This document shows positions 4,869 through 31,765 of a stretch of DNA of 64,000 bases, one piece after another (position 1 is the first letter of the stretch; each line of letters opens with the position of its first letter). The stretch comes from Azonexus sp. (lineage in GTDB: Bacteria; Pseudomonadota; Gammaproteobacteria; Burkholderiales; Rhodocyclaceae): positions 1-64,000 of the forward strand of contig NZ_JAVBXX010000010.1 in assembly GCF_030824335.1 (NCBI RefSeq). Direction: 5' to 3'. A program made the position numbers and the translations under genes. The notes beneath the pieces were generated by a model. It was not told the DNA's origin. It ran no database searches and worked only from the letters and a program-made list of their open reading frames with translations.

Positions 4869-5501
4869 TCAGTCGCCCAGACCGAGCCGGCGGGCGATGC
4901 GCACCAGTTCGAAATCGTTGGCTGCTTCCAGCCGGGTCTTGATCTGGTAATGCGTGTTGTGCACCGTCTTCGGACTCAGGCACAGGGCGGCGGCAATCTC
5001 AGGCACCGACGTACCGGCGAGCAGCAGGCGCAGCACCTCCAGCTCGCGCGGGCTGAGGCTGTCGGCAGCGTTCGGCGGCTCGGCCTCACGCAACGCAGCG
5101 CGCAGTTCGGCAGCCAGGTCCGGGCTGCAGAAACGCCGCCCGCCGGCCACCTCGCGCACCGCCTGTTGCAACACTTCCGGCGGACTGCTCTTGGTCACGT
5201 AACCCAAGGCGCCGGCGCGCACCGCCTGCACCGCCCACAACACGTCGCGATGCATGCTGAAGGCCAGCAGGCGCGCCTGCGCGTCGCGCTGGCGGATGCG
5301 CGCCAACAGTTCGAGACCGCCGATGTCGGGCAGCGCCAGGTCGAGAATCGCCACGTCCGGCTGCAATTCACGCCACAGGCGTAACCCCTCGGCGCCGGTA
5401 GACGCTTCGCCGGCCACCACCATGTTGCCCTGCTGCTCGAGCAGGCGACGGTAGCCCTGACGCACCACCGCGTGGTCGTCAACCAGCAGCAGGCGAATCA
5501 C
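4869..5501 (-). CDS. NarL/FixJ-type response regulator (pair 1)
   Basis: 210 residues. The receiver domain starts RLLLVDDHAVV with phosphoacceptor Asp54 (AILDLALPD). The LuxR-type helix-turn-helix is near the C-terminus (LSPRELEVLRLLLAGTSVPEIAAALCLSPKTVHNT). The start is the GTG at 5501, which overlaps the TGA of the partner kinase gene as GTGA. It is the last gene of the minus-strand series that begins at 13775. The family fits the ExaE/AgmR-type regulators that control quinoprotein ethanol oxidation; that role is inferred from position. Confidence 0.88.
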   Translation of the reverse strand: MIRLLLVDDHAVVRQGYRRLLEQQGNMVVAGEASTGAEGLRLWRELQPDVAILDLALPDIGGLELLARIRQRDAQARLLAFSMHRDVLWAVQAVRAGALGYVTKSSPPEVLQQAVREVAGGRRFCSPDLAAELRAALREAEPPNAADSLSPRELEVLRLLLAGTSVPEIAAALCLSPKTVHNTHYQIKTRLEAANDFELVRIARRLGLGD

Positions 5502-6953: not shown

Positions 6954-7601
6954 TCAAGCCTCGATCAACCCATTCCGCACTGCAACCAGCGTCAGTTCGG
7001 CCGCGTTCTGCACATTGAGTTTCTGCTTGATGTGATAAAGGTGGGTGCCGATTGTGGACGGGCTGAGACAGAAATCGGCGGCCACGTCGTTGACCGAGCG
7101 GCCTTCGGCCAGTTTCAGGAAAACGGCCAGTTCCTTTTCGGTCAGCGTGTCGACCGGGTTGGCCGAGCCGGACAACTGGGCCAGCGCAACCGTTTGCGCC
7201 AGTTCCGGGTCGAGATAGCGACGACCGTTCGCCACTTGGCCGACGGCGCGCAGGAATTCCTCCGGCGCGGCGCGTTTGCACAGGTAGCCGGCGGCACCGA
7301 GACGCAGGGCGCGCACCGGCACGATGTCGTCGTGGTGCGCCGACAGCATCAGCACGCGGGCTTTCGCCTCCCAGACGAGCAAGCGCTCCAGCGCGGCAAG
7401 GCCGCCGATGCCTGGCATCGAGACATCCATGATCAACAGGTCGGGGATCGTTTCGGCGTACAGGCGAATGGCGTTCTCGCCACTCTCGGCCTCACCGATC
7501 ACACAGGCCCCTGCCCCTTCGAGCAGCAGGCGAAAACCAAGGCGGACGACCGCGTGATCGTCGGCCAGCAGGACACGTACACCGTGCAGGGTCTGGTTCA
7601 T
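6954..7601 (-). CDS. NarL/FixJ-type response regulator (pair 2)
   Basis: 215 residues. The receiver has VLLADDHAVVR and Asp59 in LLIMDVSMPG. The LuxR-type helix-turn-helix is in LTEKELAVFLKLAEGRSVNDVAADFCLSPSTIGTHLYHIKQKL. The ATG overlaps the TGA of its kinase gene (7598-7601). The helix-turn-helix differs clearly from that of pair 1, so the two pairs probably read different DNA sites. They lie head to tail in one series with the TonB receptor and quinoprotein accessory genes. Confidence 0.88.
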   Translation of the reverse strand: MNQTLHGVRVLLADDHAVVRLGFRLLLEGAGACVIGEAESGENAIRLYAETIPDLLIMDVSMPGIGGLAALERLLVWEAKARVLMLSAHHDDIVPVRALRLGAAGYLCKRAAPEEFLRAVGQVANGRRYLDPELAQTVALAQLSGSANPVDTLTEKELAVFLKLAEGRSVNDVAADFCLSPSTIGTHLYHIKQKLNVQNAAELTLVAVRNGLIEA

Positions 7602-8950
7602 GGCACTTCCTCCAACAAAACTTGATCGGGCAGACAGGCGTGCAGGCCGAAGCCGCCGCCTGCCGGCCGGGTGAATTCGAGACGACCGCCGAGCAGCGCA
7701 ACGCGCTCGGCCATGCCGGCCAGGCCAAGGCCGCAGCCGGCCTGGGGTGATACGCCGCCAGGATGACCGCGACCATCGTCGCGCAGGCTGAGTTGCAGAT
7801 AACCGGCGCCCCGGACGATCAGCAGATCGACGCGGCTGGCGGCGGCGTGACGCGCCACATTGGTCAAACCTTCCTGGACGATGCGGATGACCGTCTGGGC
7901 GGTTTCATCGGCCAGTGGTCGGGTGCCGAGTTCCAGTTCGGCATGCAGGGCGATGTCTTCATGCTGAGCGCGCCAGTTGTCCAGCAATCGTTCCAGCGCG
8001 TGACCCAGGCTGTCGCCCGCCGGCGGGCGCAGACGATGCAGGATGGCCTTGACGCCCTGCTGCATTTCGCCGGTAACCGCCACAATGCTTTGTGCCGGGC
8101 TGTACAGCGCCGGCTGTTCGGTCGTGCGCTGGGCGATGGCGCCGGCCAGCGCACGCACGGCGGTGATGCCCTGCGCCAGTTCGTCGTGCAATTCGCGGGC
8201 GATCACCCGGCGCTCCTGCTCCAGCCCGGCCTGCATGCGCTCGGCAACTTCGCGCTCGGTTTCCAGCCTTACATTGTCGTTGACCGCAGCATTCAGCCGG
8301 TCGGCCATGCCATTGAAGGCACGCGACAAACGCCCGAGTTCAGGCGTCGAAAATACCGGCAAACGGGTGTCGAAACGACCGCGACCGGTGCGGTCGAGCG
8401 CCTGCATCACCTGTTCCAGCGGACGCAGCGCACAGGCCAGCGCCTTGCCGGCGGCGACATAAAGCAAACCGAGCAGGGCCAGCGCCCAGCCGGCCATCGC
8501 CAGCAGATCGTCCCAGGCGTCGATCACCGCACGCGAAGCATCCGGCACGAGGACCAGACGCAAGTCGCCAACCGTCAGGCTGCGTTGCTCGAAGACCGGA
8601 TGCAGCAAATCAACGAACCATTCGGGTACCTGACGGCCGGCCTTGTAGGTCGGCGGTGGCGAGCGATAGAGCAGGCTGCCATCGGCAGCGAGCAGTTGCA
8701 GTTCATTGGCCCGGATGCGGCCAAGCGGACGAACGACGGCAAGCAGCGCCTCCGCCCCGACTGCCGGTTGCTGCGCGACAAACGCGGCCAGCCATTGCTC
8801 GGAAACACGACTGGCCGCTTCGACCTCTTCGTGAATGCCCTGCCGCGCCCCATGCAGCCAGAGCGCGGCCAGTACCAGCAACAGGCTGGCCGCCAGCCCG
8901 GTGAACACCAGGCTGATGCGGGTGTGCAGACGGAAGGGGCGCATCGACAT
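7598..8950 (-). CDS. membrane sensor histidine kinase, HisKA_3 type (pair 2)
   Basis: 450 residues. The first membrane segment is at about 13-33, followed by a periplasmic sensor with YRSPPPTYKAG and RLVLVPDAS segments. The second segment is at about 150-170, then a HAMP-like region. HisKA_3 has His255 in ARELHDELAQGI and the HATPase has VRIVQEGLTNVARHAA and GLGLAGMAERVALLGG-type motifs. ATG 8950 or 8944 are both possible starts. It follows the TonB-receptor gene after 11 nt, which suggests one transcript. Confidence 0.87.
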   Translation of the reverse strand: MSMRPFRLHTRISLVFTGLAASLLLVLAALWLHGARQGIHEEVEAASRVSEQWLAAFVAQQPAVGAEALLAVVRPLGRIRANELQLLAADGSLLYRSPPPTYKAGRQVPEWFVDLLHPVFEQRSLTVGDLRLVLVPDASRAVIDAWDDLLAMAGWALALLGLLYVAAGKALACALRPLEQVMQALDRTGRGRFDTRLPVFSTPELGRLSRAFNGMADRLNAAVNDNVRLETEREVAERMQAGLEQERRVIARELHDELAQGITAVRALAGAIAQRTTEQPALYSPAQSIVAVTGEMQQGVKAILHRLRPPAGDSLGHALERLLDNWRAQHEDIALHAELELGTRPLADETAQTVIRIVQEGLTNVARHAAASRVDLLIVRGAGYLQLSLRDDGRGHPGGVSPQAGCGLGLAGMAERVALLGGRLEFTRPAGGGFGLHACLPDQVLLEEVP

Positions 8951-8961: not shown

Positions 8962-11289
8962 TCAGCGAGCGCCGAAGCGGTAGCGCACGCCGACCCAGGC
9001 CGCACGCGGGGCGCCCGGCGCGACGAAGGTTTCGCGTTGCCAGTCGCCGGAATCGCTCTGGAAGCTGCCGGCGCTGTTGAACGGGTTCTCGGCCAGCGCA
9101 GCGGCAGTGGCATAACGCTTGTCGAACACATTGTTCACCCGGGCAAAAACCTGCCAGTCCCGATCAAGCCTGGCCTCGGCATTCAGATTGAGAATGCCGT
9201 AACCGGCAAGCTTGCCCGAACCGTTGAAGGTCCGGCTTTTGCCGAAGGCATCGGTCGTCGTCCCGGCACGGTGCGCATTGTTTTCATTGCCTCGAGCGTA
9301 CTGGCTGGAAAATGCCTGCACATCGCCGCCGATACGCAGCCAGTCGGTGGCCCGCCAACTCAGGCCGAACTTGACGCTGTGCTTGGGCAGGCCGGGCAAA
9401 TAGTCGCCCTTGCCGACATGGATTTCATCGTCCTGTCCATTGGCCGTACACGCTGCGTCGGTGCCGCGCGAGCTGTTGTTCTCGGCCAGCATGCAGGCGT
9501 CGGAGCGGAAGCTGGCGTGCAGGTAACTGTAGTTGGCAAACCAGTCGAAGCGGCCCTGGCGCCCGTTCAGGCCAAGTTCCAGCCCCTGCCGCTGGGTCTT
9601 GCCGAAATTGGTGAAATAGCCGGCGCTGGTGGATGTGCCGACAAAGAGGATGTCATCGCTGGAAATCGTCCGATACACCCCGGCGTTCCAGCCGATATCG
9701 CCCGGCAACTTGCCACGCAGGCCGGCTTCCAGCGTGCGTGCGACGACCTGTTTCAGATACGGGTCGGCGGCCATCGAATTGGGCAGGGTGCAAGGATTGG
9801 CCGGATCGGCGCAGCCCAGCTCGATCGGTGTCGGCACCCGGTTGCCCTGGCTGGCGCCCAGATAGGCATTCAATACCGGCGCAATCTGCCAGGTCAGGCC
9901 GAGCGACGGATTCAGTTTGCGGTAATGGTGATCGCCATCGAGATTCGGCGCCGTGCGGTTCAGCTTGTCGAAAGTCGTGACATGGCTGAAGTTGTAGCGT
10001 GCCGATGCCGTCAGGTGCAAGGCCGGCGTCAGGGCATAGGTATCGGTGACGAACAGGCTGGCGGTACGGGTCGTGCCACGCAGCGCATTTTCCACATCTT
10101 CTGCGCCGGTATTGGAGACACCGCGCGACGCATCGATCACGCCGATCTGCTGGGTCTGGGCAAAACTCACCCGCGCCTGGTCAAGCGAAGTCCCCAGCGT
10201 CAACTGGTGCCGTTCGCCCAGCAAATTCCATTGCAGTGACGCCCCCGTGCCGCGCTGCGCTGTCCGGGTGCGATTATTGGCGCCGGAATCCTGATCCGAG
10301 ATGCCATCGAATGGGCCATCCTCGAAATCGTCGTTGGCATCGCCGTTCAAGGTGCGCGTGGTGTTGCGCCGATGATAGACATTGCCCGACAGGCTCTGTT
10401 TGTCGTTCAGCCAGAAACGGCCGCTCAGGGCGATCTGGGTCAGGTCGTTCCGCGTCTGGTCCGGGTGGGTGAAAATCTGCGCCCGACGTTGGGCATACAT
10501 CGATTCGGGCAGCAGGCCATTGCCCGTCATCTTGGTCACCGCACGGCTCAGCGTCAGATCGGCCTCGCCGCTCGCGCTCTTGTGCGACAACTTGCCGAAA
10601 AACTGCCGGGCATCGGATTTGGAATGATCGCGCCAGCCATCTTCGGCAAACAGATCGCTGCTCACATACCAGCCCAGCGAACCGCTATGACCGCCATATT
10701 CCAGCCCAAGGTTGCGCCGGTCGAAACTCCCGCCGGACACTTCGATCTGCCCGCCGGGATGGCTGAAGCCGCTCTTGGTACGGATGGCCAATGCCCCGCC
10801 CAGCGTATTCAGACCGAACACCGGGTTCGAACCGGGCATCAGGTCCATGCCGGCGATTGCCGTATGCGGCAGCAAATCCCAGTTGACCGTATCGCCGAAG
10901 GGTTCGTTCACCCGCACCCCGTCGAGGTAAACCGACAAGCCCTGCGGCGTGCCCAGCAAGGGCGACGCGGTGAAACCGCGATAATTCACATCCTGCTGGA
11001 ACGGATTGCCCTGCACTTCATTGACATTGACGCTGGGCAACTGGCGAGCCATGAACTCCGGCAGATTCATGCTTTCCTGTTCGTCGATCTGCTGACCGCT
11101 AATCGACTGAACGTTGGCCGGAATCTGCAGCTTGGGAATACCGATACCTGCCAGCGGCGAGTTGCCGACGATCTCCAGGGTTTCGAGCCGGATCGCCGGG
11201 TCAGCGGCCAGCGCCGAACCGAACAAACCGCTCAGGGTCAGAGCCAGCAGGCTACGCGAGGGGCGGGCAAATTGTCTTTGTCTCTTCAT
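8962..11289 (-). CDS. TonB-dependent outer-membrane receptor of the quinoprotein island
   Basis: 775 residues with a signal peptide (SLLALTLSGLFGSALA). The plug domain contains NVQSISGQQIDEQES, VNYRGF, LSVYLDGVRVNEPFGD and NPVFGLNTLGGALAI. A long beta-barrel follows and ends in VGVRYRFGAR. The size is normal for the family. Its start overlaps the tonB stop by 4 nt, and further upstream in the same operon are a zinc metallohydrolase and a SoxYZ-like carrier typical of quinoprotein dehydrogenases. Plausible cargo is a lanthanide chelate, since the divergent dehydrogenase has the lanthanide-type active site. Alternatives are PQQ itself (PqqU-type receptors exist, and no pqq biosynthesis genes are in the window) or copper. 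The cargo is inference. Confidence 0.92.
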   Translation of the reverse strand: MKRQRQFARPSRSLLALTLSGLFGSALAADPAIRLETLEIVGNSPLAGIGIPKLQIPANVQSISGQQIDEQESMNLPEFMARQLPSVNVNEVQGNPFQQDVNYRGFTASPLLGTPQGLSVYLDGVRVNEPFGDTVNWDLLPHTAIAGMDLMPGSNPVFGLNTLGGALAIRTKSGFSHPGGQIEVSGGSFDRRNLGLEYGGHSGSLGWYVSSDLFAEDGWRDHSKSDARQFFGKLSHKSASGEADLTLSRAVTKMTGNGLLPESMYAQRRAQIFTHPDQTRNDLTQIALSGRFWLNDKQSLSGNVYHRRNTTRTLNGDANDDFEDGPFDGISDQDSGANNRTRTAQRGTGASLQWNLLGERHQLTLGTSLDQARVSFAQTQQIGVIDASRGVSNTGAEDVENALRGTTRTASLFVTDTYALTPALHLTASARYNFSHVTTFDKLNRTAPNLDGDHHYRKLNPSLGLTWQIAPVLNAYLGASQGNRVPTPIELGCADPANPCTLPNSMAADPYLKQVVARTLEAGLRGKLPGDIGWNAGVYRTISSDDILFVGTSTSAGYFTNFGKTQRQGLELGLNGRQGRFDWFANYSYLHASFRSDACMLAENNSSRGTDAACTANGQDDEIHVGKGDYLPGLPKHSVKFGLSWRATDWLRIGGDVQAFSSQYARGNENNAHRAGTTTDAFGKSRTFNGSGKLAGYGILNLNAEARLDRDWQVFARVNNVFDKRYATAAALAENPFNSAGSFQSDSGDWQRETFVAPGAPRAAWVGVRYRFGAR

Positions 11290-12041
11290 GTCGTTTTTCT
11301 CAGTTTGTAATTGATCGGGATGACCACCTGGAGTTCGCTGTCATTGAGCGCCTCGGGAAAAGGCGGCAGCGTGCCAAAACCGGCCAGCATCGCCAGCGCA
11401 TGCTTGTCCAGCACATCGAAGCCGCTGGAATGTTCGAGATGAACCGCGAGCAACTGGCCCTTGCGCGCCACCTGCAGACGCAGTCGAACCTCGCCTTCCC
11501 AGCCGCGCAATGCGGCAACGCGCGGATATTCCTGCTGCCGGGCGAGCAATTCGCTTAGTTGACGCCGATAAGCCAGCAGCAAATCGGACGAAGAAGCAGC
11601 CGATGACGCAGCGGTTGCGGATGGCGGCACCGGGGCAGACACGGCCGGAACCGGTTGAAGGGTCGCCGGCGATGGCGGCGCCGCTGCGGCGATTGCCGGC
11701 TGACTGGTCGGAGTGGCCGGCCCTTGCTGCACCACATGGGCCGGCCCGGCAGCCTCTGGCACGCGGGAAGTGGGGGACATCTTCCGGGGCGGCTCTGGCT
11801 GCCGGACCTTCGTTGGAAGCACCGCTGCCGGCATGGCAGCGACAGATGCTTCGGGTTCGACGGGAGGAATCAAACGCAAGCTCGCCTGGATGGGTGGCGA
11901 AACTCGCTCATGCGAGGTTTGCTGCGTCGATGCCGTGAATAGCAGCGCCCCGTGCAACAGCAAGGACGCCGCCAAAATCAGCGAAAAACGCCGGTCGACC
12001 GCAGGCGGCAGGCAATAAACCCGGTGCACGGTCGAAGCCAT
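11286..12041 (-). CDS. tonB: TonB-family energy transducer dedicated to the adjacent receptor
   Basis: 251 residues from ATG 12041, 1 nt after the upstream stop; the longer in-frame extension overlaps the metallohydrolase gene and is rejected. One N-terminal membrane helix (SLILAASLLLHGALLF) is followed by a Pro/Ala-rich periplasmic spacer with many PP, PAT and APV runs. The C-terminal TonB domain has EYPRVAALRGWEGEVRLRLQV, GFDVLDKHALAML and PIN-Y. It connects inner-membrane energy (ExbBD, not in the window) to the receptor encoded next. A tonB fused into this operon implies that the imported molecule matters for the dehydrogenase system. Confidence 0.88.
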   Translation of the reverse strand: MASTVHRVYCLPPAVDRRFSLILAASLLLHGALLFTASTQQTSHERVSPPIQASLRLIPPVEPEASVAAMPAAVLPTKVRQPEPPRKMSPTSRVPEAAGPAHVVQQGPATPTSQPAIAAAAPPSPATLQPVPAVSAPVPPSATAASSAASSSDLLLAYRRQLSELLARQQEYPRVAALRGWEGEVRLRLQVARKGQLLAVHLEHSSGFDVLDKHALAMLAGFGTLPPFPEALNDSELQVVIPINYKLRKTT

Positions 12042-12042
12042 C

Positions 12043-13008
12043 TCAGTAGCGGCCTTCCAGCACGCCCTGCTCGGCGGCCGGGAACAGATGGCCGACGGAA
12101 CGGCGATATTCGCTCCGGGCCTGCGGCCATTGGGCAAAATCGGGCGCGACCGGCAGTTCCAGCACTTCGTTCATGTCCTGTCCGGCCTGTGCGGCACGGC
12201 GCAGCGCACCTTGCAACCAGGTCAGCCAGGCGCGGGTCTGGCGGATGGGCTGCGCATCGCGACTGACCTCTCCGTGTCCCGGCACCAATGCGGTGAAGCC
12301 GGGTTCGCGGGTGATGGCTTCCAGCGTATCGAGCGCGGCCAGCCAGCGCGTTACATCGGCGTGCGGCGTCGTCGGCGCCCGGCGGTTGAAGGCCAGATCG
12401 CCGGCAAACAGGACACCGCTGGTTTCGTCATAAACCGCCAGATCGGCCCCGGTGTGGCCATCCAGCGCGATCAGGCGCAAGCGGCGGCCGGCAATATCGC
12501 TCGTCCCGACGGCCAGTGTTTTGTTCGGCACCTGCACTTCGGTGTCTTTCATCCAGTCGCCGCTCAGGCGAAACAGGTTCTCGGCAAAGGCATTACCCTC
12601 CTCGGCGATGCCCTTGACGGTTGCCGGCAAGGCACCGATCGGCAGATCGGCAAAGGCCTGATTTCCCAAAAAATGGTCCGGATGATGATGGGTGTTGATC
12701 AGCATCACCGGCGATTTACCGGTTTGCGCCGTCATGCTTTGGCGCATCTGCCGGCCGTAACGCAAGGAGGGACCGCTGTCGATCACGATCAGGCCGGCCG
12801 GCGCGACGATGAAACCGGTGTTGACGATATTGCCGCCGTTTTCCATCGTGAAATCTTCGGTCCGCCCAATGAAGGCATACACGCCATCGGCCACCTTGCG
12901 GGCCTGCAGGGCGTAATCGAACTCGGCCGCCGGGAGCAAACCGGGCAACAGGCCGCTCAGGCCGGCCAGCAGGAAAGCGAGCCGGCGTTTCATGGCGCAA
13001 TATTTCAT
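12043..13008 (-). CDS. quinoprotein relay system zinc metallohydrolase
   Basis: 321 residues with an N-terminal signal peptide (LAFLLAGLSGLLPGLLPAA). The metallo-beta-lactamase fold shows THHHPDH (metal ligands), LIVIDSGPS, LDGHTGADLAVY, LFAGDLAFN and VPGHG. The protein belongs by context and motif to the SoxH-like metallohydrolases found next to PQQ dehydrogenases. The precise reaction is unknown; thiol or persulfide chemistry together with the SoxYZ-like carrier has been proposed for the family. The ATG overlaps the SoxYZ-like stop by 4 nt. The signal peptide places it in the periplasm with the dehydrogenases. Confidence 0.85.
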   Translation of the reverse strand: MKYCAMKRRLAFLLAGLSGLLPGLLPAAEFDYALQARKVADGVYAFIGRTEDFTMENGGNIVNTGFIVAPAGLIVIDSGPSLRYGRQMRQSMTAQTGKSPVMLINTHHHPDHFLGNQAFADLPIGALPATVKGIAEEGNAFAENLFRLSGDWMKDTEVQVPNKTLAVGTSDIAGRRLRLIALDGHTGADLAVYDETSGVLFAGDLAFNRRAPTTPHADVTRWLAALDTLEAITREPGFTALVPGHGEVSRDAQPIRQTRAWLTWLQGALRRAAQAGQDMNEVLELPVAPDFAQWPQARSEYRRSVGHLFPAAEQGVLEGRY

Positions 13009-13775
13009 GGCGCAATCCTTGCCCGGAAGGCGTTGCCGTTGTTATCCCGGCCGCTGGCTTCGACCGCACCGGCATTCTCCCCGGCCTGCAAGGTGAAGAC
13101 CGGGTTCTCGCTGACCGGCTCGAAGGTTTGCAAACGCATCAGACGCTGACCGGCGGCATCGTGAAAATCGATCTCCTCGAGATGAAAGGCCGGCGTGCCG
13201 GCCACCAGCCCGGTGTCCATCGGATGTTCGATGCGCAGGCGCAGCCGACCGGCATTCGGCCCGGTAGACCATTGCCGGCCGCTGACCGCATTCAGGCGCT
13301 GCTGCCAGTCCTTGGCTGCCGCACTACCGGCTGGCGCGGTACATCCGCCGCCGACGGTATTCACCCAGGTGCCGCCCACATGCCAGATTCCGTCCGCCGT
13401 GCGGACGGCCGCCCGCACCGGGGTCGATTGCTGCAGCTTGACGCGAAAACCGAGGTAGGCCGAGGCGTGCTCGGGATAGAAACGCAACACCTGCACAATC
13501 GGGTTGAAGTCGGCGAAGACAAGCACCTCGACCACCTTGCCCAATTGCGTCGCATCGACCGTTACCGGCACCTGCAACGGATCTTCTGCCATCGACGGGG
13601 CAATCACCTTGACCCGCGGGTCGAACAACACAGGAGCGCCGGCCAGGAAGCTTTTTTCCATCTCGCCCCAGCGGGCCGAAGCCAGCGGATCGCCGGTTTC
13701 GCTGAGGGCAGCCGCATCGGCCGCCGGCATCAAGGCAGCCAAGGCAAGCGCCGCGATGGTCATCGGGAATTTCAT
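13005..13775 (-). CDS. quinoprotein dehydrogenase-associated SoxYZ-like carrier
   Basis: 256 residues from ATG 13775, with GGAGAGAG upstream. Signal peptide: [17 protein letters not shown]. The first half is SoxY-like and carries the swinging-arm type segment [10 protein letters not shown], with one cysteine, internal rather than C-terminal. The second half is SoxZ-like ([12 protein letters not shown]...ARIAP). SoxY and SoxZ are thus fused in one chain, as in the carriers linked to PQQ dehydrogenases. It is the first gene of the long minus-strand operon and sits 46 nt from a perfect -24/-12 promoter. The carrier probably works with the metallohydrolase encoded next. Confidence 0.85.
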
Positions 13776-13820: not shown

Positions 13821-13836
13821 TGCAAGCGCCGTGCCA
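13821..13836 (-). promoter_or_regulatory. sigma-54 promoter of the SoxYZ/TonB/two-component operon
   Basis: On the minus strand the sequence reads TGGCACGGCGCTTGCA, a perfect match to the TGGCACG-N4-TTGCA consensus. Transcription would start near 13809, about 35 nt before the ATG at 13775. An AcoR-like sigma-54 activator is encoded at 38641-40635. Confidence 0.85.
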
Positions 13837-13933
13837 AACCCGTGCAACCCCCGCCAAGGCCCGAGCCATCAAGGAATCGGGGTTTTACGTCGAAACCGCC
13901 GGTCGACCGCAACAAACGAACTGTGCAACTGTG

Positions 13934-13943
13934 GAACACCTGT
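13934..13943. promoter_or_regulatory. candidate activator site shared with the aldehyde dehydrogenase promoter
   Basis: GAACACCTGT here also occurs at 31766-31775. The copies lie about 100-120 bp upstream of the sigma-54 promoters at 13821, 14050 and 31888, the usual place for an enhancer-binding protein. Its core is a short inverted repeat ACA-N2-TGT. No copy was found in the 38442-38519 region, so the link is tentative. The rest of the 416-bp gap 13776-14191 holds no gene, only the two divergent promoters and leaders. Confidence 0.35.
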
Positions 13944-14049
13944 ATCCATTTGCAGCAGACCGACCTGCGACATGGCACACATTGCCCGGCCCCCGGGAAT
14001 TCCCCGCCCGGCCGCATGGATGGCGGCCTTGCGGCCATCCCGCAAGGTG

Positions 14050-14065
14050 TGGCACAGGCCTTGCA
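14050..14065 (+). promoter_or_regulatory. sigma-54 promoter of the lanthanide-type dehydrogenase
   Basis: TGGCACAGGCCTTGCA matches the -24/-12 consensus with GG and GC at the required spacing. The expected start is near 14077, leaving a leader of about 115 nt before ATG 14192. It diverges from the promoter at 13821-13836, about 215 bp away. Confidence 0.85.
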
Positions 14066-14191: not shown

Positions 14192-15973
14192 ATGCACCGT
14201 CATTCCCTCCCCCAGCGTCACCGACTCGGTCTCGCGCTGGCTGTCGCCCTGGCCTTCGCCGGCAGCCCAGCCACCGCCACCGTCACCGATGCCGACATCC
14301 TCAACGATGCCAAGACCACCGGCGATGTCGTCAGCTTCGGCCTCGGCACCCAGGGCCAGCGTTTCAGCCCATCGACCCAGATCAATACCAAATCCGTCAA
14401 GGATCTGGTGCCGGCCTGGTCGATGTCCTTCGGCGGCGAAAAACAACGCGGCCAGGAATCGCAACCGGTCATCCACAACGGCAAGATGTTCGTCACCGCC
14501 TCGTATAGCCGCCTTTTTGCGGTCGACGCCAAATCGGGCAAGAAACTGTGGAAGTACGAACACCGCCTGCCGGACGGCATCATGCCCTGCTGCGATGTGA
14601 TCAACCGCGGCGCCGCCCTGTACGGCAACCTGGTCTTTTTCGCCACGCTCGACGCTCAACTGGTCGCCCTCAACCAGGACACCGGCAAAGTGGTCTGGAA
14701 GGAAAAGCTGGGTGATTACGCCGCCGGCTACTCTGCCACTGCTGCCCCGATCATCGCCAAGGGCAAGCTGATCACCGGCGTTTCCGGCGGCGAATTCGGC
14801 GCTGTTGGCCGGATCGATGCACGCGACCCGATGACCGGCAAGCTGATCTGGACCCGTCCGACCGTCGAAGGTCACATGGGCTACCGTTACGAAAACGGCC
14901 AGGAAATCGAAAACGGCATTTCCGGCACGCTCAACGCCACCTGGGAAGGCGACCTGTGGAAGACCGGCGGTGCAGCGACCTGGAACGGCGCCACCTACGA
15001 TCCGGAAACCAACCTGATCTTCGCCGGCACCGGCAACCCGGCCCCGTGGAACAGCCACCTGCGTCCGGGCGACAACCTGTTCTCGTCGTCCACCGTCGCC
15101 ATCGACGCCGATACCGGCAAGATCAGCTGGCACTATCAGAACACCCCGCACGACGGCTGGGACTTTGACGGTGTGAACGAATTCGTTTCCTTCGACTACA
15201 AGGACCCGAAGACCGGCAAGGTGATCAAGGCGGGCGGCAAGGCTGACCGTAACGGCTTCTTCTTCGTCAACGACCGGACCAACGGCAAGCTGTTGAACGC
15301 TTTCCCCTTCGTCAAGAAGATCACCTGGGCCACCGGCTTCAACCTGGAAACCGGCCGTCCGAACTACATTGAAGAAGGCCGCCCCGGCGACCCGACGCAA
15401 GGTGTTGACGGCAAGAAGGGCAAGGTTGTCTTCTCGGCGCCGTCCTTCCTCGGCGGCAAGAACCAGCAGCAGATGGCCTACAGCCCGCAGACCGGCCTGT
15501 TCTACGTGCCGGCCAACGAGTGGTCGATGGATATCTGGAACGAGCCGGTTTCGTACAAGAAGGGCGCCGCCTACCTGGGCGCCGGCTTCACCATCAAGGC
15601 CATCCACGATGACCATATCGGCGTGCTGCGCGCAGTCGATCCGGCCACCGGCAAGATCGTCTGGGAAAACAAGAACTACGCCCCGCTCTGGGGTGGCGTG
15701 CTGACCACGGCTGGCGGCCTGATTTTCTACGGTACCCCGGAAGGCTTCCTGAAGGGTGTTGACGCCAAGACCGGCAAGGAGCTGTGGTCCTTCCAGACCG
15801 GCACCGGCATCGTTGCACCGCCGGTCAGCTGGGAACAGGATGGCGAGCAGATGATCGCCGTGACGACCGGCTGGGGCGGCGCTGTGCCGCTGTGGGGCGG
15901 CGACGTGGCCAAGCGCGTGAACTTCCTCGAACAGGGCGGTTCCGTCTGGGTCTTCAAGCTGCACAAGCGTTAA
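14192..15973 (+). CDS. pedH: PQQ-dependent alcohol dehydrogenase, predicted lanthanide-dependent (PedH type)
   Basis: 593 residues from ATG 14192 (AAGGAGA upstream; earlier in-frame ATGs lie upstream of this promoter's leader). Signal peptide: [18 protein letters not shown]. It is an eight-bladed propeller with vicinal Cys133-Cys134 (MPCCDV) next to PQQ. Predicted metal ligands are Glu201 (GGEFGAVG) and Asn282 (TGNPAPWN). The active site reads [11 protein letters not shown]: Asp324 is the catalytic base and Asp326, two residues on, is the extra carboxylate that marks lanthanide-dependent XoxF/PedH enzymes. It oxidises alcohols in the periplasm and passes electrons to a cytochrome c. It is alone on its transcript, driven by a sigma-54 promoter and closed by a strong terminator. 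The exact substrate range is not readable. Confidence 0.92.
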
Positions 15974-16010
15974 ACGATTTCCACCAAGGGCGCTGCATCG
16001 CCCGCTCCAG

Positions 16011-16046
16011 ACGGCGCACTGGCTTCGGCCAGCGCGCCGTTTTTTT
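16011..16046 (+). terminator. terminator after pedH-like gene
   Basis: ACGGCGC-CTGGC arm, TTCG loop, GCCAG-GCGCCGT arm, then seven T residues. It stops plus-strand transcription before the convergent cytochrome gene. Confidence 0.88.
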
Positions 16047-16077
16047 GCCTGCTTTCCGGGTTGACCGCAAAAATTCA

Positions 16078-16548
16078 CTACGGCTCCCGGCGTACGCGGG
16101 ATTCGATGAAGGTCTGGATGGCCCAGGCCAGTTCCTGCTTGAGCACACCGTCCCACGGCGGCATGTGCGTTATGCCGACAATGACCTTCCCCTGACGCAC
16201 GGTCTTGGCGAAATAGGCGTCGTTGTCGCGCAGGCAGGCAGCTTGCAATTCGGCATCGCCGATGCGCCGGCAATAGCGGTTGAGATTGCGCAGGTCGGGT
16301 GCCGGTGCGGCATTGGTACTGGCATCGGCCCCGTGGCAGCGGGCGCAGGCCTGGTTGTAGGCCTGCTGGCCGATGTCGATGGCGAGCGCATTGCCCCGGT
16401 AGGGATTGCCCTCCAGCCATGACGTACCGAGCACCGGCAAGCCGGCAGGTTCGACGCTCGGCGCCACGGCAACTTCGTTGGCGATGGCCGAACTGGAGAG
16501 CAGGAAGGCGAACAGGACAGCGAACAGCGGGGAGATCATTTTGCGCAT
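16078..16548 (-). CDS. exaB: periplasmic cytochrome c partner of the calcium-type dehydrogenase
   Basis: 156 residues from ATG 16548; ATG 16572 is an alternative that overlaps the upstream stop. Signal peptide: FAVLFAFLLSSSAIA. It has one haem site CARCH and a probable Met ligand in THMPPWDG. The sequence layout GNPYRGNALAIDIGQQAYNQACARCHGADAS is that of the PedF/ExaB cytochrome c550 family. In that family the protein takes electrons from the quinoprotein and hands them to the respiratory chain. It is the last gene after the WDFS dehydrogenase and the pentapeptide protein. The gene symbol is given by position and family and is less certain than the function. Confidence 0.82.
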   Translation of the reverse strand: MRKMISPLFAVLFAFLLSSSAIANEVAVAPSVEPAGLPVLGTSWLEGNPYRGNALAIDIGQQAYNQACARCHGADASTNAAPAPDLRNLNRYCRRIGDAELQAACLRDNDAYFAKTVRQGKVIVGITHMPPWDGVLKQELAWAIQTFIESRVRREP

Positions 16549-16553
16549 GCAAA

Positions 16554-17123
16554 TCACCAGTCGGTCGGGCAAGCCGTACAGCCCTCGAAATCGGCTTCAT
16601 GGAATACCGCGAAGCGGCGATAGGTGCCGGAAAGATCGGCTTTACGGAAGTTGACCGTAAAAAACTTGCTTTCCTGCAGGTTGGCGTTAGTCAGTTTGGC
16701 GCCGGCCATCCAGGCGAAATTCACCTTGGCGGCTTCCAGATTGGCTGCGGTCAGATCGGCACCCGTGAAATCGGCGCGAAACAAGCGGGCGAATTCCAGA
16801 TCGGCACCAATCAGTTTGGCGCCGCGAAAAGTCGCCGTCGGCGCGCTGACCTTGCCCAGGCGCGCCCCGGTCAGATCGGCCCCGTCGAGGTTGGCGCCCG
16901 CCAGGTTGGCCCCGCGCAGATCGGCACGGGCCAGTTGCGCACCGCTCAAGTCGGCACCGGCGAGATTCTTGCCCGCCAGATTGGCGTGGCGCAGGTCGGC
17001 CCCTGGGCAACGGGCATGCGGCCAGATGCCGCAACCGTTGATCACCAGCGGCTCAATCGGCTCGGCAGCGAATGTTGCGGTCGACAGGCTCAGCAGGGCA
17101 AAAAGCAAGGGAGAGAAACGCAT
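16554..17123 (-). CDS. exported pentapeptide-repeat protein between dehydrogenase and cytochrome genes
   Basis: 189 residues from ATG 17123 (a further in-frame start is at 17153). Signal peptide: LLFALLSLSTATFAA. The mature protein opens with NGCGIWPHARCPG and then has about two dozen A(D/N)LxX pentapeptides (ADLRHANLAGKNLAGADLSG and onward), which form a right-handed four-sided beta-helix. It ends with FEGCTACPTDW, so there is a Cys pair at each end that could form disulfides. Its location between the WDFS dehydrogenase and its cytochrome implies a periplasmic role in that system, perhaps as a scaffold. I know of no assigned function for this member. Confidence 0.82.
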   Translation of the reverse strand: MRFSPLLFALLSLSTATFAAEPIEPLVINGCGIWPHARCPGADLRHANLAGKNLAGADLSGAQLARADLRGANLAGANLDGADLTGARLGKVSAPTATFRGAKLIGADLEFARLFRADFTGADLTAANLEAAKVNFAWMAGAKLTNANLQESKFFTVNFRKADLSGTYRRFAVFHEADFEGCTACPTDW

Positions 17124-17187
17124 CGTGATTCCGATCAACAGAAACACCGTCACCCCCGCAAATACGGGGATGACGGTTATTGCCGAC

Positions 17188-19056
17188 TTAGTTCTTCAGC
17201 GACTTCGGCAGCTTGAATACCCACATCGAGCCGCCCTGCGTCACCTGCTTGGTCAGGTCGGCCATGTCGCCGCCCCACAAAGGCACAGCACCGCCGTAGC
17301 CGGACTGGATGCCGACATACTGCTCGCCGTCCATTTCCCAGGTGATCGGCACGGAAACCACGCCGGAGCCGGTCTGGAACTTCCACAGTTCCTTGCCGTT
17401 CTTGGCGTCGAAAGCCTTGACGTAGCCGTCCGACGTGCCGGTGAACAACAGGCCGCCGGCGGTGGTCATGGTGCCAGCCCAGAGCGGGAATTTCTCCTTG
17501 TGCTCCCAGGCGACCTTGCCGGTCTTCGGATCGATCGCACGCAGGATGCCGACATGGTCGTCGAACAGGCGCTTGATGCGGAAACCCTGGCCGAGATAGG
17601 CGGAACCGGCCTTGTAGGTCAGTTTTTCAGTCCAGTAATCCATCGCCCAGTGATTGGCCGGGATGTAGAACAGTTCGGTCTGCTGGCTGAAGCTCATCGG
17701 CATCCAGTTGGTGCCGCCCAGGAAAGGCGGCGAAACGTAGACTGAATCCCCCTTCTCGGCGCCTTCCTTGACCTTCGGCGGACGGTTGTCTTTCTCGATC
17801 GGCTTGCCGGTCTTCAGGTCGAAACCGGAGGCCCAGGTGATGCCATCGACAAACGGCCAGGCGCCGATCAGCGAGGTTGGCTTGTTCGGGTAGCCGGCAC
17901 CGGACGACAGCTTCTCGCGGTCGGTGACGAAGAAGAAGCCGTTGCGGTCAGCGTGGGCGGAAGCCTTGACCTGCTTGCCGGTTTTCGGATCCTTGTATTC
18001 GAAGAGCACCACCGAGTTGTTGCCGGAGAAGTCCCAGGCATCGTTCGGCGTGTGCTGGAAGAAGCCTTTCAGCTCGCCAGTGTTGGCATCGACGTAAGCC
18101 TGGCCGGAGGTGAACAGGCTGTCCCAGTTGCGCGGATCGTCGCCTTCCTTGGTCCGGTGCCAGGTATTCCACGGTGCCGGGTTGCCGGTACCGATGACCA
18201 CCATGTTCTTGTCCACGTCGTAGCTGGCCGTCTGCCACGGCGCACCGCCGCCGTGATTCCAGGCATCGACCTTCTTGCCATCCGGACCTTCCGGCCAGCT
18301 AGGCGCCTTGGCGTCGCCGGTCGGCGTGCTGTCCTTGCCATTCAAGCGGCCCATGTGACCTTCGACCATCGGCCGCGCCCAGACTTCTTCCCCCGTCTCG
18401 GGATCGCGGGCGAACAAATAGCCGACGACGCCGAATTCGTCACCCGAGGAACCATGCACCAGCAAGACCTTCCCGCTCTTCTCGTCCTTCACGACGAAAG
18501 GTGCGCCGGTCATCGTGTAGCCGACCTTGTGATCGCCGAACTTCTTGCGCCAGGCGACCTTGCCGGTGTCCTTGTCGAGCGCGACGATGGCCGCGTCGAG
18601 CGTACCGAAGTAAATCTTGTTGCCGTAGATCGCGGCGCCGCGGTTGACCACGTCGCAGCACGGACGGATGTCGTCGGGCAAGCGGGCTTCATATTCCCAG
18701 AGGCGTTTGCCGGTGCGCGCATCAATCGCAAAAATGCGCGAATACGACGCGGTGACGTAGATCACGCCGTCGTGCACCAGCGCCTGCGCTTCCTGACCGC
18801 GCTGCTTTTCGCCGCCGAAGGAGAAGCTCCAGGCCGGCACGAGGTGATCGACGTTCTTGGTATTGATCTTGGTCAACGGGCTGAACCGCTGCGCCTTCAG
18901 GCCAAGACCGTAAGACAGCACATCCTGCGTCGTCTTGTCGTCGTTGAGAATATCCTCCCAACTCACCGTCTTGGCCGCCATTGCCGGCGTACAGAAGGTG
19001 GCCGCAAGCAATGCGGCGAGAAGGGTCTGGCGGTGATTGAACCGGATTGATTTCAT
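17188..19056 (-). CDS. exaA: PQQ-dependent ethanol dehydrogenase, predicted calcium-dependent (ExaA/PedE type)
   Basis: 622 residues from ATG 19056 (GGAGACG upstream). Signal peptide: LLAALLAATFCTPAMA. Vicinal Cys133-Cys134 (RPCCDV), Glu in GDEFGVVG and Asn in TGNPAPWN mark the PQQ/metal site. The active site reads NDAWDFSGNN, with catalytic Asp342 and Ser344 where lanthanide enzymes have Asp, so calcium is predicted. It has an insertion rich in Gly/Pro/Lys near residues 240-275 that the lanthanide-type paralogue lacks. The gene heads a three-gene operon with the pentapeptide protein and cytochrome. No -24/-12 promoter was seen upstream; two CCCGA-type palindromes lie there instead. The divergent kinase/regulator pair is the likely controller. 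Confidence 0.93.
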   Translation of the reverse strand: MKSIRFNHRQTLLAALLAATFCTPAMAAKTVSWEDILNDDKTTQDVLSYGLGLKAQRFSPLTKINTKNVDHLVPAWSFSFGGEKQRGQEAQALVHDGVIYVTASYSRIFAIDARTGKRLWEYEARLPDDIRPCCDVVNRGAAIYGNKIYFGTLDAAIVALDKDTGKVAWRKKFGDHKVGYTMTGAPFVVKDEKSGKVLLVHGSSGDEFGVVGYLFARDPETGEEVWARPMVEGHMGRLNGKDSTPTGDAKAPSWPEGPDGKKVDAWNHGGGAPWQTASYDVDKNMVVIGTGNPAPWNTWHRTKEGDDPRNWDSLFTSGQAYVDANTGELKGFFQHTPNDAWDFSGNNSVVLFEYKDPKTGKQVKASAHADRNGFFFVTDREKLSSGAGYPNKPTSLIGAWPFVDGITWASGFDLKTGKPIEKDNRPPKVKEGAEKGDSVYVSPPFLGGTNWMPMSFSQQTELFYIPANHWAMDYWTEKLTYKAGSAYLGQGFRIKRLFDDHVGILRAIDPKTGKVAWEHKEKFPLWAGTMTTAGGLLFTGTSDGYVKAFDAKNGKELWKFQTGSGVVSVPITWEMDGEQYVGIQSGYGGAVPLWGGDMADLTKQVTQGGSMWVFKLPKSLKN

Positions 19057-19265: not shown

Positions 19266-20579
19266 ATGGATTTAAGAAAACGACTGGTTTGGGCACTCGG
19301 CATGCTGCTCGGCGGACTGGTGGCGATGACCATGCTGGTCAACCTGTATTCGTTACGGCAAGACGTCGAAGCCGAAATCCGCGCCTCCGAACAACTGCTT
19401 GCCGTGCTGCTGCAAGCCAGCCGGATTCCTGCACCGGCAAGGGATGAACTCACGGCCCTGCTGGAAAACGCAGCCCTGCGCCATCTGACCATTCAAGCGG
19501 CGGAGGACGCCAGCCCGCCAGCGGAGCAGCTCGGCTGGCTGAGTCGTTGGCTCGGGATCAGCAGCCCGGAAAATGCCGGGCAAACGATGAAAATCGGCGA
19601 ACACACCCTGCGCATCACGAGCAATCCGGCCTCGGAAATCGATGAGCGATTTGATGACACTGTTCGACTTTGTATCACCCTGTTGTTCTTTTCTGGAGCA
19701 ACTCTGCTCGTGGCATGGTGGTCGGCACACCGTGCCCTGGCACCGGTGCGCGAACTGGAAGCCGGCTTGCAACGGCTGGCCGGCGGTGAAGTCGATGCGG
19801 CGCTACCCGGCTTTGCGCTGCGGGAATTCACGCGGGTGGCCGAAGCCATCGACACGCTGGCCGGCGCGCTGGCCGACTCGCGCCATGCCCAGCATCAGCT
19901 CGCCCAATTGCTGATCACCGTGCAAGAAGAAGAAAGACAAAGCCTGGCAAGAGAATTGCACGACGAGATGGGGCAGACCCTGACCGCGATTGGCGTTACC
20001 GCCGCCTTCATCGAGCGCAATGCCAGCCAGCTTGATCCGGTACGCGTCGCCGAATGCGCCGCTGACCTGCGGCGAGATCTCCGTAACGGCAACATCCAAC
20101 TGAAAAACATGCTTAAACAACTGCGACCACACGGCCTTGATGCCACCGAACTGACTTATGTCTTGCGCGAATTGGTCAGTAGCTGGCAACAACGGGCCGC
20201 CACCATCGATTTCCAGTTATCCATGCCGGCACAACTACCCGGCCTGAGCGAAAAAGTCTGTCTCATCGCTTATCGGGTGACCCAGGAAGCCCTGACCAAT
20301 GTGGTACGCCACAGCGACGCCCGGAATTGCTGGATCAACGTCGACATCAACGATGAAGGCTTGCACCTGAACATAAGAGATAACGGCAAAGGCTTGCCGG
20401 ATTCGGCACCACCGCGGATGGGCAGCGGCCTGCTCGGGATGACCGAACGACTGGAGATGATCGGCGGTCGCCTGAGCATCACCGGCGCGGCAGGTCAGGG
20501 CCTGCAAGTTGACGCCAGTTTGCCGCTTGAAAAAACAGAAAAAAAGGAGACACAACATGATTCGCATCATTCTGGTTGA
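19266..20579 (+). CDS. membrane sensor histidine kinase, HisKA_3 type (pair 3)
   Basis: 437 residues. Membrane helices are at about 9-28 and 134-152. The short periplasmic domain between them resembles other small sensors of this class. HAMP-like region: REFTRVAEAIDTLAGAL. HisKA_3 phosphoacceptor His232 is in ARELHDEMGQTL, and the HATPase has YRVTQEALTNVVRHSDA and GSGLLGMTERLEMIGG. It is divergent from the calcium-type dehydrogenase operon and overlaps its regulator gene by 23 nt, fitting ExaD/ErcS-type control of ethanol oxidation. Confidence 0.88.
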   Translation: MDLRKRLVWALGMLLGGLVAMTMLVNLYSLRQDVEAEIRASEQLLAVLLQASRIPAPARDELTALLENAALRHLTIQAAEDASPPAEQLGWLSRWLGISSPENAGQTMKIGEHTLRITSNPASEIDERFDDTVRLCITLLFFSGATLLVAWWSAHRALAPVRELEAGLQRLAGGEVDAALPGFALREFTRVAEAIDTLAGALADSRHAQHQLAQLLITVQEEERQSLARELHDEMGQTLTAIGVTAAFIERNASQLDPVRVAECAADLRRDLRNGNIQLKNMLKQLRPHGLDATELTYVLRELVSSWQQRAATIDFQLSMPAQLPGLSEKVCLIAYRVTQEALTNVVRHSDARNCWINVDINDEGLHLNIRDNGKGLPDSAPPRMGSGLLGMTERLEMIGGRLSITGAAGQGLQVDASLPLEKTEKKETQHDSHHSG

Positions 20580-21204
20580 CGATCACGCCGTCGTCCGTAA
20601 CGGCTATCGGCGCTTGCTCGATGCCGAGCCTGGCATGCAGGTGGTCGGCGAAGCGGCCAGTGCCGATGAGGCCAACGCCCTGGTGCTGCGCACGGTGGCC
20701 GACGTGGCGCTGGTCGACCTGAGCCTGCGCGGTAGCAGCGGGATTGAAGCCATCCGCGGCATGCTGGTCCGTCAGCCCATGCTGAAGATACTGGTGCTAT
20801 CCATGCATGACGGCGCCGGACACGTCACCCAGGCCTTGCGCAGCGGTGCGCTTGGTTACCTGACCAAATACAGCGAACCCGACGAGGTGATCGACGGCAT
20901 CCGGCGCATTGCCGCCGGCAAGCGCGTCTTTTCGCCGGAGATCGCCCAGGTGCTGGCCGAGGAAGCGATCGACGGCGACGGCGCATTGACCCACCTGACC
21001 CCGCGTGAGTTCGAAGTGCTGCGCATGCTGGCACATGGCGAGTCAGCCAACCGGATCGCCAATTCCATGCACCTCAGTCCGAAAACTGTCTTGAACTACC
21101 TGTCCCTGATTCGGCAAAAACTCGACGCCGACAACGATTTCAAACTGCTGCACCTGGCTGCCCGGCACGGACTGGTGGATATCCAGCACGCCCTCGGCAC
21201 CTGA
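20557..21204 (+). CDS. NarL/FixJ-type response regulator (pair 3)
   Basis: 215 residues from ATG 20557, with AAAGGAGA just upstream inside the kinase gene. The receiver has IILVDDHAVVRNGYRRLL and Asp54 in ALVDLSLRG. The helix-turn-helix is LTPREFEVLRMLAHGESANRIANSMHLSPKTVLNYLSLIRQKL. It is closest in wording to response regulator 1 of this window (VVR-GYRRLL), which suggests paralogy. It probably acts on the exaA operon and on the cytochrome gene that follows; this is inference from the divergent layout. Confidence 0.88.
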   Translation: MIRIILVDDHAVVRNGYRRLLDAEPGMQVVGEAASADEANALVLRTVADVALVDLSLRGSSGIEAIRGMLVRQPMLKILVLSMHDGAGHVTQALRSGALGYLTKYSEPDEVIDGIRRIAAGKRVFSPEIAQVLAEEAIDGDGALTHLTPREFEVLRMLAHGESANRIANSMHLSPKTVLNYLSLIRQKLDADNDFKLLHLAARHGLVDIQHALGT

Positions 21205-21243: not shown

Positions 21244-21624
21244 ATGCTTCGCCATTCCCGTCTGATCGCTCTTTTGAGTTGCAGTCTGCTCAGCCCGCTC
21301 GCCCTGGCCGATGCAAAGACCGATACCAACATGCAGAAACTGGCCTCGACCAGCGGCTGCATGACCTGCCACAGCATCGAATCGGGCAAACCCGGCCCGG
21401 ACGGCATGAAACCCATCGGCCCGGCCTGGCTCGATGTCGCCAAGCAATACAGCGGCAAACCCGGCGCCACCGAATTCCTCACCCGCGTCGTCCTTGAAGG
21501 CTCCAACCCGTACAGCAGCCACTGGAAAGGCAAGGTCAGCGGTCTGTCCATGCCACCCAACGCGGTCGCCATTACCGAAGGCAACGCCCGCTTGCTGGTG
21601 AACTGGATTTTGGCCATGAAATAG
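21244..21624 (+). CDS. small periplasmic cytochrome c
   Basis: 126 residues. Signal peptide: LIALLSCSLLSPLALA. It has a single haem motif CMTCH and a probable axial Met in SGLSMPPNAV; the overall layout (IGPAWLDVAKQY) is of the cytochrome c5/c551 class. AGGAGA precedes the ATG. It lies 39 nt after the regulator gene, in line with it, and is followed by a terminator. It is a likely electron carrier for the island. Confidence 0.85.
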   Translation: MLRHSRLIALLSCSLLSPLALADAKTDTNMQKLASTSGCMTCHSIESGKPGPDGMKPIGPAWLDVAKQYSGKPGATEFLTRVVLEGSNPYSSHWKGKVSGLSMPPNAVAITEGNARLLVNWILAMK

Positions 21625-31679: not shown

Positions 31680-31765
31680 GCGGAGTCATCCTTGATAATG
31701 GATAACGAGCATACAGGCGCCCGCCAACCAAAGGCAAGCCGACAGCAAGCGACTGCTCCATTGCT

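Follow-up and report, generated by a model that had tools for sequence, protein, structure and literature searches.

We examined a 64,000-nucleotide stretch of DNA from an Azonexus sp. (assembly GCF_030824335.1, contig NZ_JAVBXX010000010.1, positions 1 to 64,000; hereafter the window), in which two genes for alcohol dehydrogenases dependent on pyrroloquinoline quinone (PQQ) converge amid accessory, receptor, and regulatory genes (Table 1). An initial annotation made from the letters had read the pair as a lanthanide-type and a calcium-type enzyme, each with a promoter type and a regulator of its own, and had predicted a metal-dependent switch between them in a betaproteobacterium. We found both open reading frames to be uninterrupted at the positions given there, with the metal-site motif W323-D324-F325-D326 in the plus-strand (PedH-type) protein and W341-D342-F343-S344 in the minus-strand (ExaA/PedE-type) protein, which bears out the WDFD/WDFS assignment. 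The two genes are convergent as claimed, but they do not adjoin, with two minus-strand genes (for a cytochrome and a pentapeptide-repeat protein) in between. The PedH-type protein furthermore keeps E201, N282, D324, and D326 as well as the Cys pair 133-134, the same residues as in the structure 6zcw; its Glu and Asn, besides the Asp, we take to be metal ligands. This enzyme should need a lanthanide together with PQQ.

Both proteins scored well above the cut-off of TIGR03075 (775 bits for the PedH-type and 726 bits for the ExaA-type protein, cut-off 480), which no further protein of the assembly reached. Alignment to characterised relatives separated them into the two families that had been proposed: among solved structures, the PedH-type protein matched 6zcv (860 bits) and 6zcw (857 bits) before 1flg (717 bits), and the ExaA-type protein matched 1flg (968 bits) before 6zcv (678 bits). 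The structure 6ZCW is described as the lanthanide-dependent PedH (PMC11996626), the database entries 6zcv and 6zcw being titled just "quinoprotein ethanol dehydrogenase", and 1flg is given as ExaA of P. aeruginosa (PMC5487730). Using the PedH-type protein as query, we found 381 loci and kept the best 80, in which WD[F/Y]D was present in 80/80 PedH-type relatives (69 with F, 11 with Y) and WDFS in all 29 ExaA-type genes that fell within the stretches. Judging from this conservation, the residue pair is no chance feature. The closest records include Dechloromonas and Azonexus, at up to 95% identity, and as Dechloromonas belongs to the Rhodocyclales of the Betaproteobacteria, the placement of the host could be upheld as well. 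Both dehydrogenase genes are also present in the cultured bacteria D. denitrificans, D. agitata, and D. hortensis.

Table 1. Features of the window discussed in the text, with positions counted from its first nucleotide.
Feature	Position	Strand	Remarks
Third histidine kinase	5498..6889	-	
Response regulator RR2, NarL/LuxR-type	6954..7601	-	
Histidine kinase HK2 (HAMP, HisKA_3)	7598..8950	-	placed in SoxYZ operon by strand and spacing
TonB-dependent receptor	8962..11289	-	nearest solved relative PqqU, without its PQQ-binding residues; candidate lanthanide(-chelate) receptor
TonB	11286..12137	-	
Quinoprotein relay zinc metallohydrolase 1	12043..13008	-	TIGR04558 408.6 bits, cut-off 300
Quinoprotein-associated SoxYZ-like carrier	13005..13775	-	TIGR04557 215.2 bits, cut-off 140
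Sigma-54 promoter of SoxYZ operon	13821..13836	-	TGGCACGGCGCTTGCA
Conserved dyad (likely activator site)	13921..13946	-	between PedH and SoxYZ sigma-54 promoters
Sigma-54 promoter of PedH gene	14050..14065	+	TGGCACAGGCCTTGCA
PedH-type (lanthanide-type) PQQ alcohol dehydrogenase	14192..15973	+	WDFD; 593 amino acids without stop
c-type cytochrome, PedF-like	16078..16548	-	downstream of ExaA gene; TIGR04494 115.4 bits, under PedF cut-off 122
Pentapeptide-repeat protein	16554..17123	-	PedD position
ExaA/PedE-type (calcium-type) PQQ alcohol dehydrogenase	17188..19056	-	WDFS; 622 amino acids; ATG at 19056
Histidine kinase HK1	19266..20579	+	divergent from ExaA gene
Response regulator RR1, NarL/LuxR-type	20557..21204	+	
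Small c-type cytochrome	21244..21624	+	
Second dyad copy	31753..31778	-	upstream of exaC
Acetaldehyde dehydrogenase ExaC	31883..33529	+	NF050026 957 bits, cut-off 900
Sigma-54 site upstream of exaC	31888-31903	+	TGGCACACGGCATGCA; inside open reading frame as listed, before probable start
Cytochrome c-550 PedF	37948..38376	-	TIGR04494 211.9 bits, cut-off 122
Sigma-54 promoter of pedF	38426..38441	-	11/12 relatives
Sigma-54 site before activator gene	38520..38535	+	
Sigma-54 activator (GAF, AAA+, Fis helix-turn-helix)	38641..40635	+	divergent from pedF

The two enzymes are set apart by their promoters, as had been suggested. The PedH gene and the operon divergent from it on its left, which encodes the SoxYZ-like carrier, the metallohydrolase, TonB, the receptor, HK2, RR2, and the third kinase (hereafter the SoxYZ operon), have sigma-54 promoters back to back, with GG/GC at -24/-12 and the consensus conserved in relatives, and a similar promoter pair serves pedF and the GAF-type activator gene 24 kb away. 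The exact motif TGGCACN5TTGC occurs at four sites in the 64 kb (14050 +, 13836 -, 38441 -, and 38520 +), and the fuller pattern TGGCACN5TTGCW at 16 sites in the 3.77-Mb genome, 3 of them in the window (reversed-letter control, 3). Upon scoring the best upstream site in the relatives, we obtained a match of at least 10/12 before 79/79 PedH genes (1 of the 80 loci was dropped, its upstream DNA being too short) and before 64/64 SoxYZ operons, as against 0/27 ExaA genes (best 9), at a score that about 1% of shuffled upstream sequences reach. The strict pattern gave 79/79, 61/64, and 0/27, respectively, while reversed, complemented, one-shorter, and one-longer patterns gave 0 in all three sets. In a 12-mer scan of the intergenic regions of 62 relatives, nothing but the PedH-side sigma-54 site and the stretch directly before the PedH start passed the cut; the SoxYZ-side site stayed below it. 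The split was confirmed in 56/56 loci of the genus and family genome sets, which overlap with the 80-locus set, and the Aquabacterium olei plasmid pTB101 (Burkholderiales in NCBI), with 11/12 before its WDFD gene, 10/12 before pedF, and 8/12 before its WDFS gene, is by the look of its promoters an independent case of the same split. For the ExaA promoter itself, a sigma-70 scan found 1 site versus 1.7 expected and gives no sigma-factor assignment, and an inverted repeat that is perfect upstream of the ExaA gene in the window recurred in 1/29 relatives, hence is no conserved element. Half-sites CCGGGAA are common upstream of ExaA genes (CCGGGAAAA in 20/29), an element that differs from the dyad described below. 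As the whole PedH module together with exaC and pedF looks sigma-54-controlled, it would be induced by alcohol or aldehyde, besides or instead of metal.

Between the sigma-54 promoters of the PedH gene and the SoxYZ operon we found a conserved dyad with the consensus tCAcCAnCTGCTCCAAAGTtGcACAn, a second copy of which lies upstream of exaC. After training a model on 31 loci and setting a limit at 99% of resampled sequences, we saw the dyad beyond the limit in 27/32 held-out PedH/SoxYZ regions (window included) and in 8/16 upstream regions of exaC, which were never in training (12/16 at 95%), as against 0/29 upstream regions of ExaA genes. When a model of all loci, which has the window's PedH/SoxYZ site among its training sites, was run over the 64 kb, that copy scored best and the exaC copy second best. 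The dyad is likely an activator site, at which an AcoR-like enhancer-binding protein would turn on the PedH module in response to alcohol or aldehyde; this is probably the protein encoded next to pedF or one related to it. AcoR and BmoR share a layout of GAF, AAA+, and Fis helix-turn-helix. At the level of description, the window's protein resembles such activators in sigma-54 activation and alcohol-related targets (for BmoR, see PMC6366067). A relative of the activator gene is divergent from exaC in four loci (L040, L068, L071, and L074), and four Thauera loci (L075, L080, L082, and L083) have the activator gene and pedF close to the PedH gene.

We consider it likely that the locus combines a sigma-54-controlled lanthanide-type module with a separately controlled calcium-type module, both running on scavenged PQQ. 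In such a two-module system for periplasmic alcohol oxidation, the first module would be formed by the PedH-type enzyme with its lanthanide and PQQ, transcribed from the sigma-54 promoter, and by the divergent sigma-54 operon with the quinoprotein accessory pair, TonB, the outer-membrane receptor, and the second two-component pair; exaC and pedF would join via sigma-54 promoters of their own, exaC with the same activator site. The second module would consist of the ExaA-type calcium enzyme, the pentapeptide protein, and the cytochrome, would lack a sigma-54 site, and would be run by the divergent HK1-RR1 pair, through which a lanthanide may lower exaA, as La3+ acts through PedS2-PedR2 in P. 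putida.

Several points weigh against this model, which is built on sequence, with its effects on expression, metal use, and growth being predictions. Among PedH-type genes from other GTDB families, 5/12 have the sigma-54 site and 7/12 do not, and HK1 has a sigma-54-like site (at least 10/12) in 9/30 relatives, mostly Denitromonas-like ones, so the promoter split is imperfect. The dyad stayed under the 99% limit in 5/32 held-out regions and in 8/16 exaC regions, a third dyad-like match at 35631 has no good sigma-54 site nearby, and no dyad was found in the window's pedF/activator region (best 2.6), which leaves that activator unproven as the dyad binder. Moreover, 7/57 PedH loci lack RR2 and 22/57 lack the receptor at 50% identity, many of the relatives counted share descent, and the genome sets overlap. 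Finally, as the window's own genome is 91.8% complete, an assembly gap could account for the absence of a pqq operon.

The two-component pairs bear most directly on the strongest rival, a plain P. putida-type switch in which HK1-RR1 senses the metal and, when it is absent, activates the calcium enzyme and represses its lanthanide counterpart, sigma-54 adding just alcohol induction; we regard this as rather less likely than not. In P. putida, La3+ regulates pedE and pedH inversely via PedS2-PedR2, by a mechanism described in PMC6115532, and PedS2-PedR2 is listed next to pedD-pedE (PMC12997753). The HK1-RR1 pair sits where ExaDE/PedS2R2-type pairs sit, beside exaA and the pentapeptide gene like the kinase-regulator pair in Azospirillum; its likeness to PedS2/PedR2 is one of position, the regulators compared in sequence being those of Azospirillum and Aquabacterium, of which the one next to the Aquabacterium ExaA shares 51% identity with RR1. 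Among the 53/80 loci with a right flank of at least 9 kb, RR1 was present in 24/24 loci with an ExaA gene versus 2/29 without (Fisher 4e-13, shared descent uncorrected), so that the regulator claimed for the calcium-type gene does go with it. However, 27 of these 53 loci have neither ExaA nor RR1 in the stretch (the rest of the genomes lying outside the search), and the second pair, RR2-HK2, stays with PedH: in the 57/80 loci with a left flank of at least 9 kb, RR2 was found in 50, HK2 in 50, and the receptor at 50% identity or more in 35, and RR2 was kept in 18/23 ExaA-lacking loci with both flanks long. Identity to the A. brasilense regulator, furthermore, is just 37% for RR1 and hardly differs for RR2 (35%). 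Residue conservation in the sensor parts of HK1 and HK2 did not point to any ligand, and no lanthanide sensor could be named from sequence.

A locus without any metal switch, in which different substrates or growth states induce each enzyme and the lanthanide decides just the activity of one, appears unlikely. Sigma-54 promoters, an activator of GAF type, and the dyad that recurs before exaC do resemble substrate control, and among 76 genomes of the genus there are both PedH-only (17) and ExaA-only members (4, three of these fragmented or incomplete); yet the closest characterised pair, that of P. putida, is inversely regulated by La3+ as described above.

The two-module reading further includes a dependence on external PQQ, for which a PqqU encoded elsewhere in the genome is the most likely importer. 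At an estimated completeness of 91.8%, the window's own genome has no PqqE over the cut-off (best 52 bits) and no PqqC. Dehydrogenases are present in 56 of the 76 genus genomes and PqqE in 33, which leaves 24 members with a dehydrogenase without PqqE, 23 of them also without PqqC (G221 has PqqC); 15 of the 24 are at least 99% complete by estimate (one, G194, with an estimated 10% contamination), and 5 of these 15 are single-contig. As PqqU-like receptors we counted matches to NF041535 at E <= 1e-60, the family cut-off of 1200 bits being reached in 0/76 members, and found one in 24/24 dehydrogenase carriers without PqqE, in 28/32 carriers with PqqE, and in 2/20 non-carriers. The window's own genome encodes such a protein (C31, 706 amino acids) on another contig. 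At 685 bits the protein is under the NF041535 cut-off, but a hand count along its alignment with E. coli PqqU places Phe opposite Y99 and Lys/Arg opposite K274, R304, R365, and R536, and these five positions are invariant in 13/13 PqqU-like copies aligned. The PQQ-binding signature of PqqU is given as an aromatic residue at Y99 with R304 and R365 (PMC12124388); the same paper describes PQQ scavenging as widespread, and its main text does not name Dechloromonas. That the organism makes its own PQQ from synthesis genes hidden in an assembly gap is quite unlikely: the incompleteness of its assembly and PqqE in 33/76 genus members leave room for it, whereas the 15 members just mentioned have dehydrogenases without PqqE at an estimated completeness of 99% or more, and 15/15 of them have the PqqU-like receptor. 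Hence, we suggest that 24/56 dehydrogenase carriers of the genus depend on PQQ made by others.

In some relatives, the PqqU-like gene lies at the locus itself. Of the 13 loci with this gene, four (L167, L169, L173, and L177) have it 27-237 bp behind SoxYZ-operon genes and three (L171, L176, and L181) have it 0.7-2.3 kb behind RR2, always on the strand of those genes, so that it may be read from the operon promoter there. A separate TGGCA-type sigma-54 site for the PqqU-like gene was not found next to it in any of the 13 loci. One of these loci belongs to the one clean ExaA-only case, genome G160 (estimated 100% complete, 20 contigs), which keeps HK1, RR1, SoxYZ, metallohydrolase, and PqqU-like genes in 20 kb, with the sigma-54 site kept before the SoxYZ gene and the PqqU-like gene 41 bp after the metallohydrolase gene. 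PedH and the operon receptor are absent genome-wide from G160 at the limits used, and TonB, HK2, and RR2 are absent from the 20-kb stretch. Of the three other ExaA-only genomes, two have the receptor and one has a diverged form of it. As a side observation, L177 is the locus of G160 and L173 that of G147, and in G160 the PqqU-like gene takes the place held elsewhere by TonB and the receptor.

The receptor of the SoxYZ operon is a different protein, related to PqqU. It had no phmmer match in the PDB at E 0.001; a profile search placed PqqU first (117 bits, next 50), and so did a fold search with the predicted structure (pLDDT, the predicted local distance difference test, 79.6), at Z 35.8 with a root-mean-square deviation of 2.5 A over 623 residues, by a small margin over FecA (Z 34.2). 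As receptors for several cargoes score nearly alike in the fold search, no cargo can be named from the fold. The protein fails the PqqU signature Y99/R304/R365, with an invariant Leu112 at the PQQ-stacking position (Y99) and residues other than Arg aligned with R304 and R365 (profile alignments; the loop alignment is uncertain), and its matches at E <= 1e-100 follow PedH, occurring in 46/52 PedH carriers versus 5/24 others. Import of PQQ or a PQQ-metal complex rather than a lanthanide, our first choice for a protein encoded beside TonB with PqqU as nearest relative by profile and, slightly, by fold, is no longer so and appears improbable, because the binding residues failed, a separate PqqU-like receptor carries them, the gene follows PedH, and ExaA-only G160 lacks it yet keeps the PqqU-like one. 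We also rejected the idea that the operon receptor tracks missing PQQ synthesis, since it was found at E <= 1e-100 in 32/33 PqqE carriers and in 18/24 PqqE-less dehydrogenase carriers.

Within the two-module reading, a metal-chelate is a fair guess for the cargo of the operon receptor, as relatives elsewhere lie near copper/methanobactin genes or near no dehydrogenase, and a lanthanide is our best guess at this locus. In gene context, it resembles LutH/LanA of methylotrophs, which are described as TonB-dependent receptors linked to lanthanide-type PQQ dehydrogenases (PMC12482762, PMC12997753); the difference is that its relatives also lie near copper/methanobactin genes (Ideonella) or away from dehydrogenases (Caballeronia). 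On an Ideonella dechloratans plasmid (L245), a 50% identical relative adjoins a kinase-regulator pair near methanobactin-type copper genes. A diverged receptor copy (46-48%) stands beside the ExaA gene, outside the PedH operon, in L016 and L039 (at about 15.2-17.7 kb) and in L197. In five PqqE carriers (G175, G198, G205, G168, and G215), the best match is just 48-49% identical to the window's receptor, which there seems to have been replaced.

Compared with the rare-earth switch of P. putida KT2440, the locus likewise holds calcium-type and lanthanide-type enzymes in one cluster with accessory genes. The likeness extends to the WDFS- and WDFD-type enzymes, the pentapeptide protein, PedF, the SoxYZ-like and metallohydrolase genes, the NarL/LuxR-type pair, and the ExaC-type aldehyde dehydrogenase (PMC5487730, PMC6115532, PMC12997753). 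Most parts of the locus are thus members of the P. putida ped cluster, rearranged, while the passages of PMC12997753 that list the cluster name neither TonB nor such a receptor or activator. By contrast, the two halves here are convergent and separately regulated, the PedH half has sigma-54 promoters and a dyad (the P. putida pedH promoter lying outside the comparison), TonB, the receptor, and a second two-component pair are part of an operon, and no PqqE or PqqC was found. With respect to exaAB-exaDE of P. aeruginosa and exaA of A. brasilense, the locus shares the exaA-pentapeptide order and a divergent kinase and regulator, as seen on an A. brasilense plasmid. Work by Singh in 2017 reportedly showed that an A. 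brasilense exaA needs sigma-54 with a LuxR-type regulator; the A. brasilense exaA that we examined has no sigma-54 site (6/12), and here it is the PedH gene that has the site and the ExaA gene that lacks it. Sigma-54 control of a PQQ dehydrogenase as such is not new, because PMC6115532 cites it for an Azospirillum exaA. A literature search that left out subscription papers and preprints returned, among the papers listed, no description of sigma-54 control of a lanthanide-type gene or of its conservation, and nothing on point for Dechloromonas with PQQ, PedH with RpoN, or Rhodocyclaceae with lanthanide.

The pair of calcium and lanthanide dehydrogenases is of a known kind, and what sets the locus apart as a variant form of the rare-earth switch of P. 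putida is its wiring and its PQQ dependence; the observation behind the initial annotation is real, and its interpretation is partly supported. More tentatively, and with some doubt, we suggest that in Rhodocyclales the lanthanide-type enzyme may be the core of a self-contained sigma-54 regulon that brings its own sensor pair, its own TonB, and a lanthanide(-chelate) receptor other than PqqU, so that cells unable to make PQQ would scavenge metal and cofactor via two related receptors, in some relatives encoded in one operon. Control by sigma-54 and an activator would then represent the sort of "unknown regulatory module" behind pedH activation in P. putida, where the pedH activator is called "yet unknown" (PMC6115532). 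The outer-membrane route of lanthanides in P. putida is left open in PMC12997753. The locus offers testable candidates for both in cultured bacteria, namely the sigma-54 activator site for pedH activation and the linked receptor for lanthanide entry.

Several smaller features of the neighbourhood remain to be described. The PedH gene is followed on its 3' side by a strong hairpin and then T's (RNA fold of 15974-16055 at -37.2 kcal/mol, z -3.4), with 1/200 shuffles equally good; a simple terminator scan did not pick up this hairpin. The true start of exaC is probably near 32018, because the family match begins at residue 46. For the third histidine kinase, the matches listed in the 80 relatives (above 33% identity) are 33-41% identical and lie at the HK1/HK2 positions. 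The interval 21779-31679, from the ExaA regulators to exaC, encodes a cluster of large sensor proteins, namely a pair of dCache sensor kinases, one receiver/kinase protein, and one receiver-GGDEF protein, and the interval 34387-37105, between exaC and pedF, encodes a protein resembling glucose/sorbosone dehydrogenase (GSDH; 121 bits against TIGR03606, below the cut-off of that family) as well as cytochrome b561-like and beta-propeller proteins, which have relatives near pedF in several loci. Positions 1-4000, at the contig start, possibly represent a foreign segment, with a G+C content of 0.526 versus about 0.57-0.68 elsewhere, small open reading frames with weak codon bias, and a Sel1-repeat protein at the right edge.

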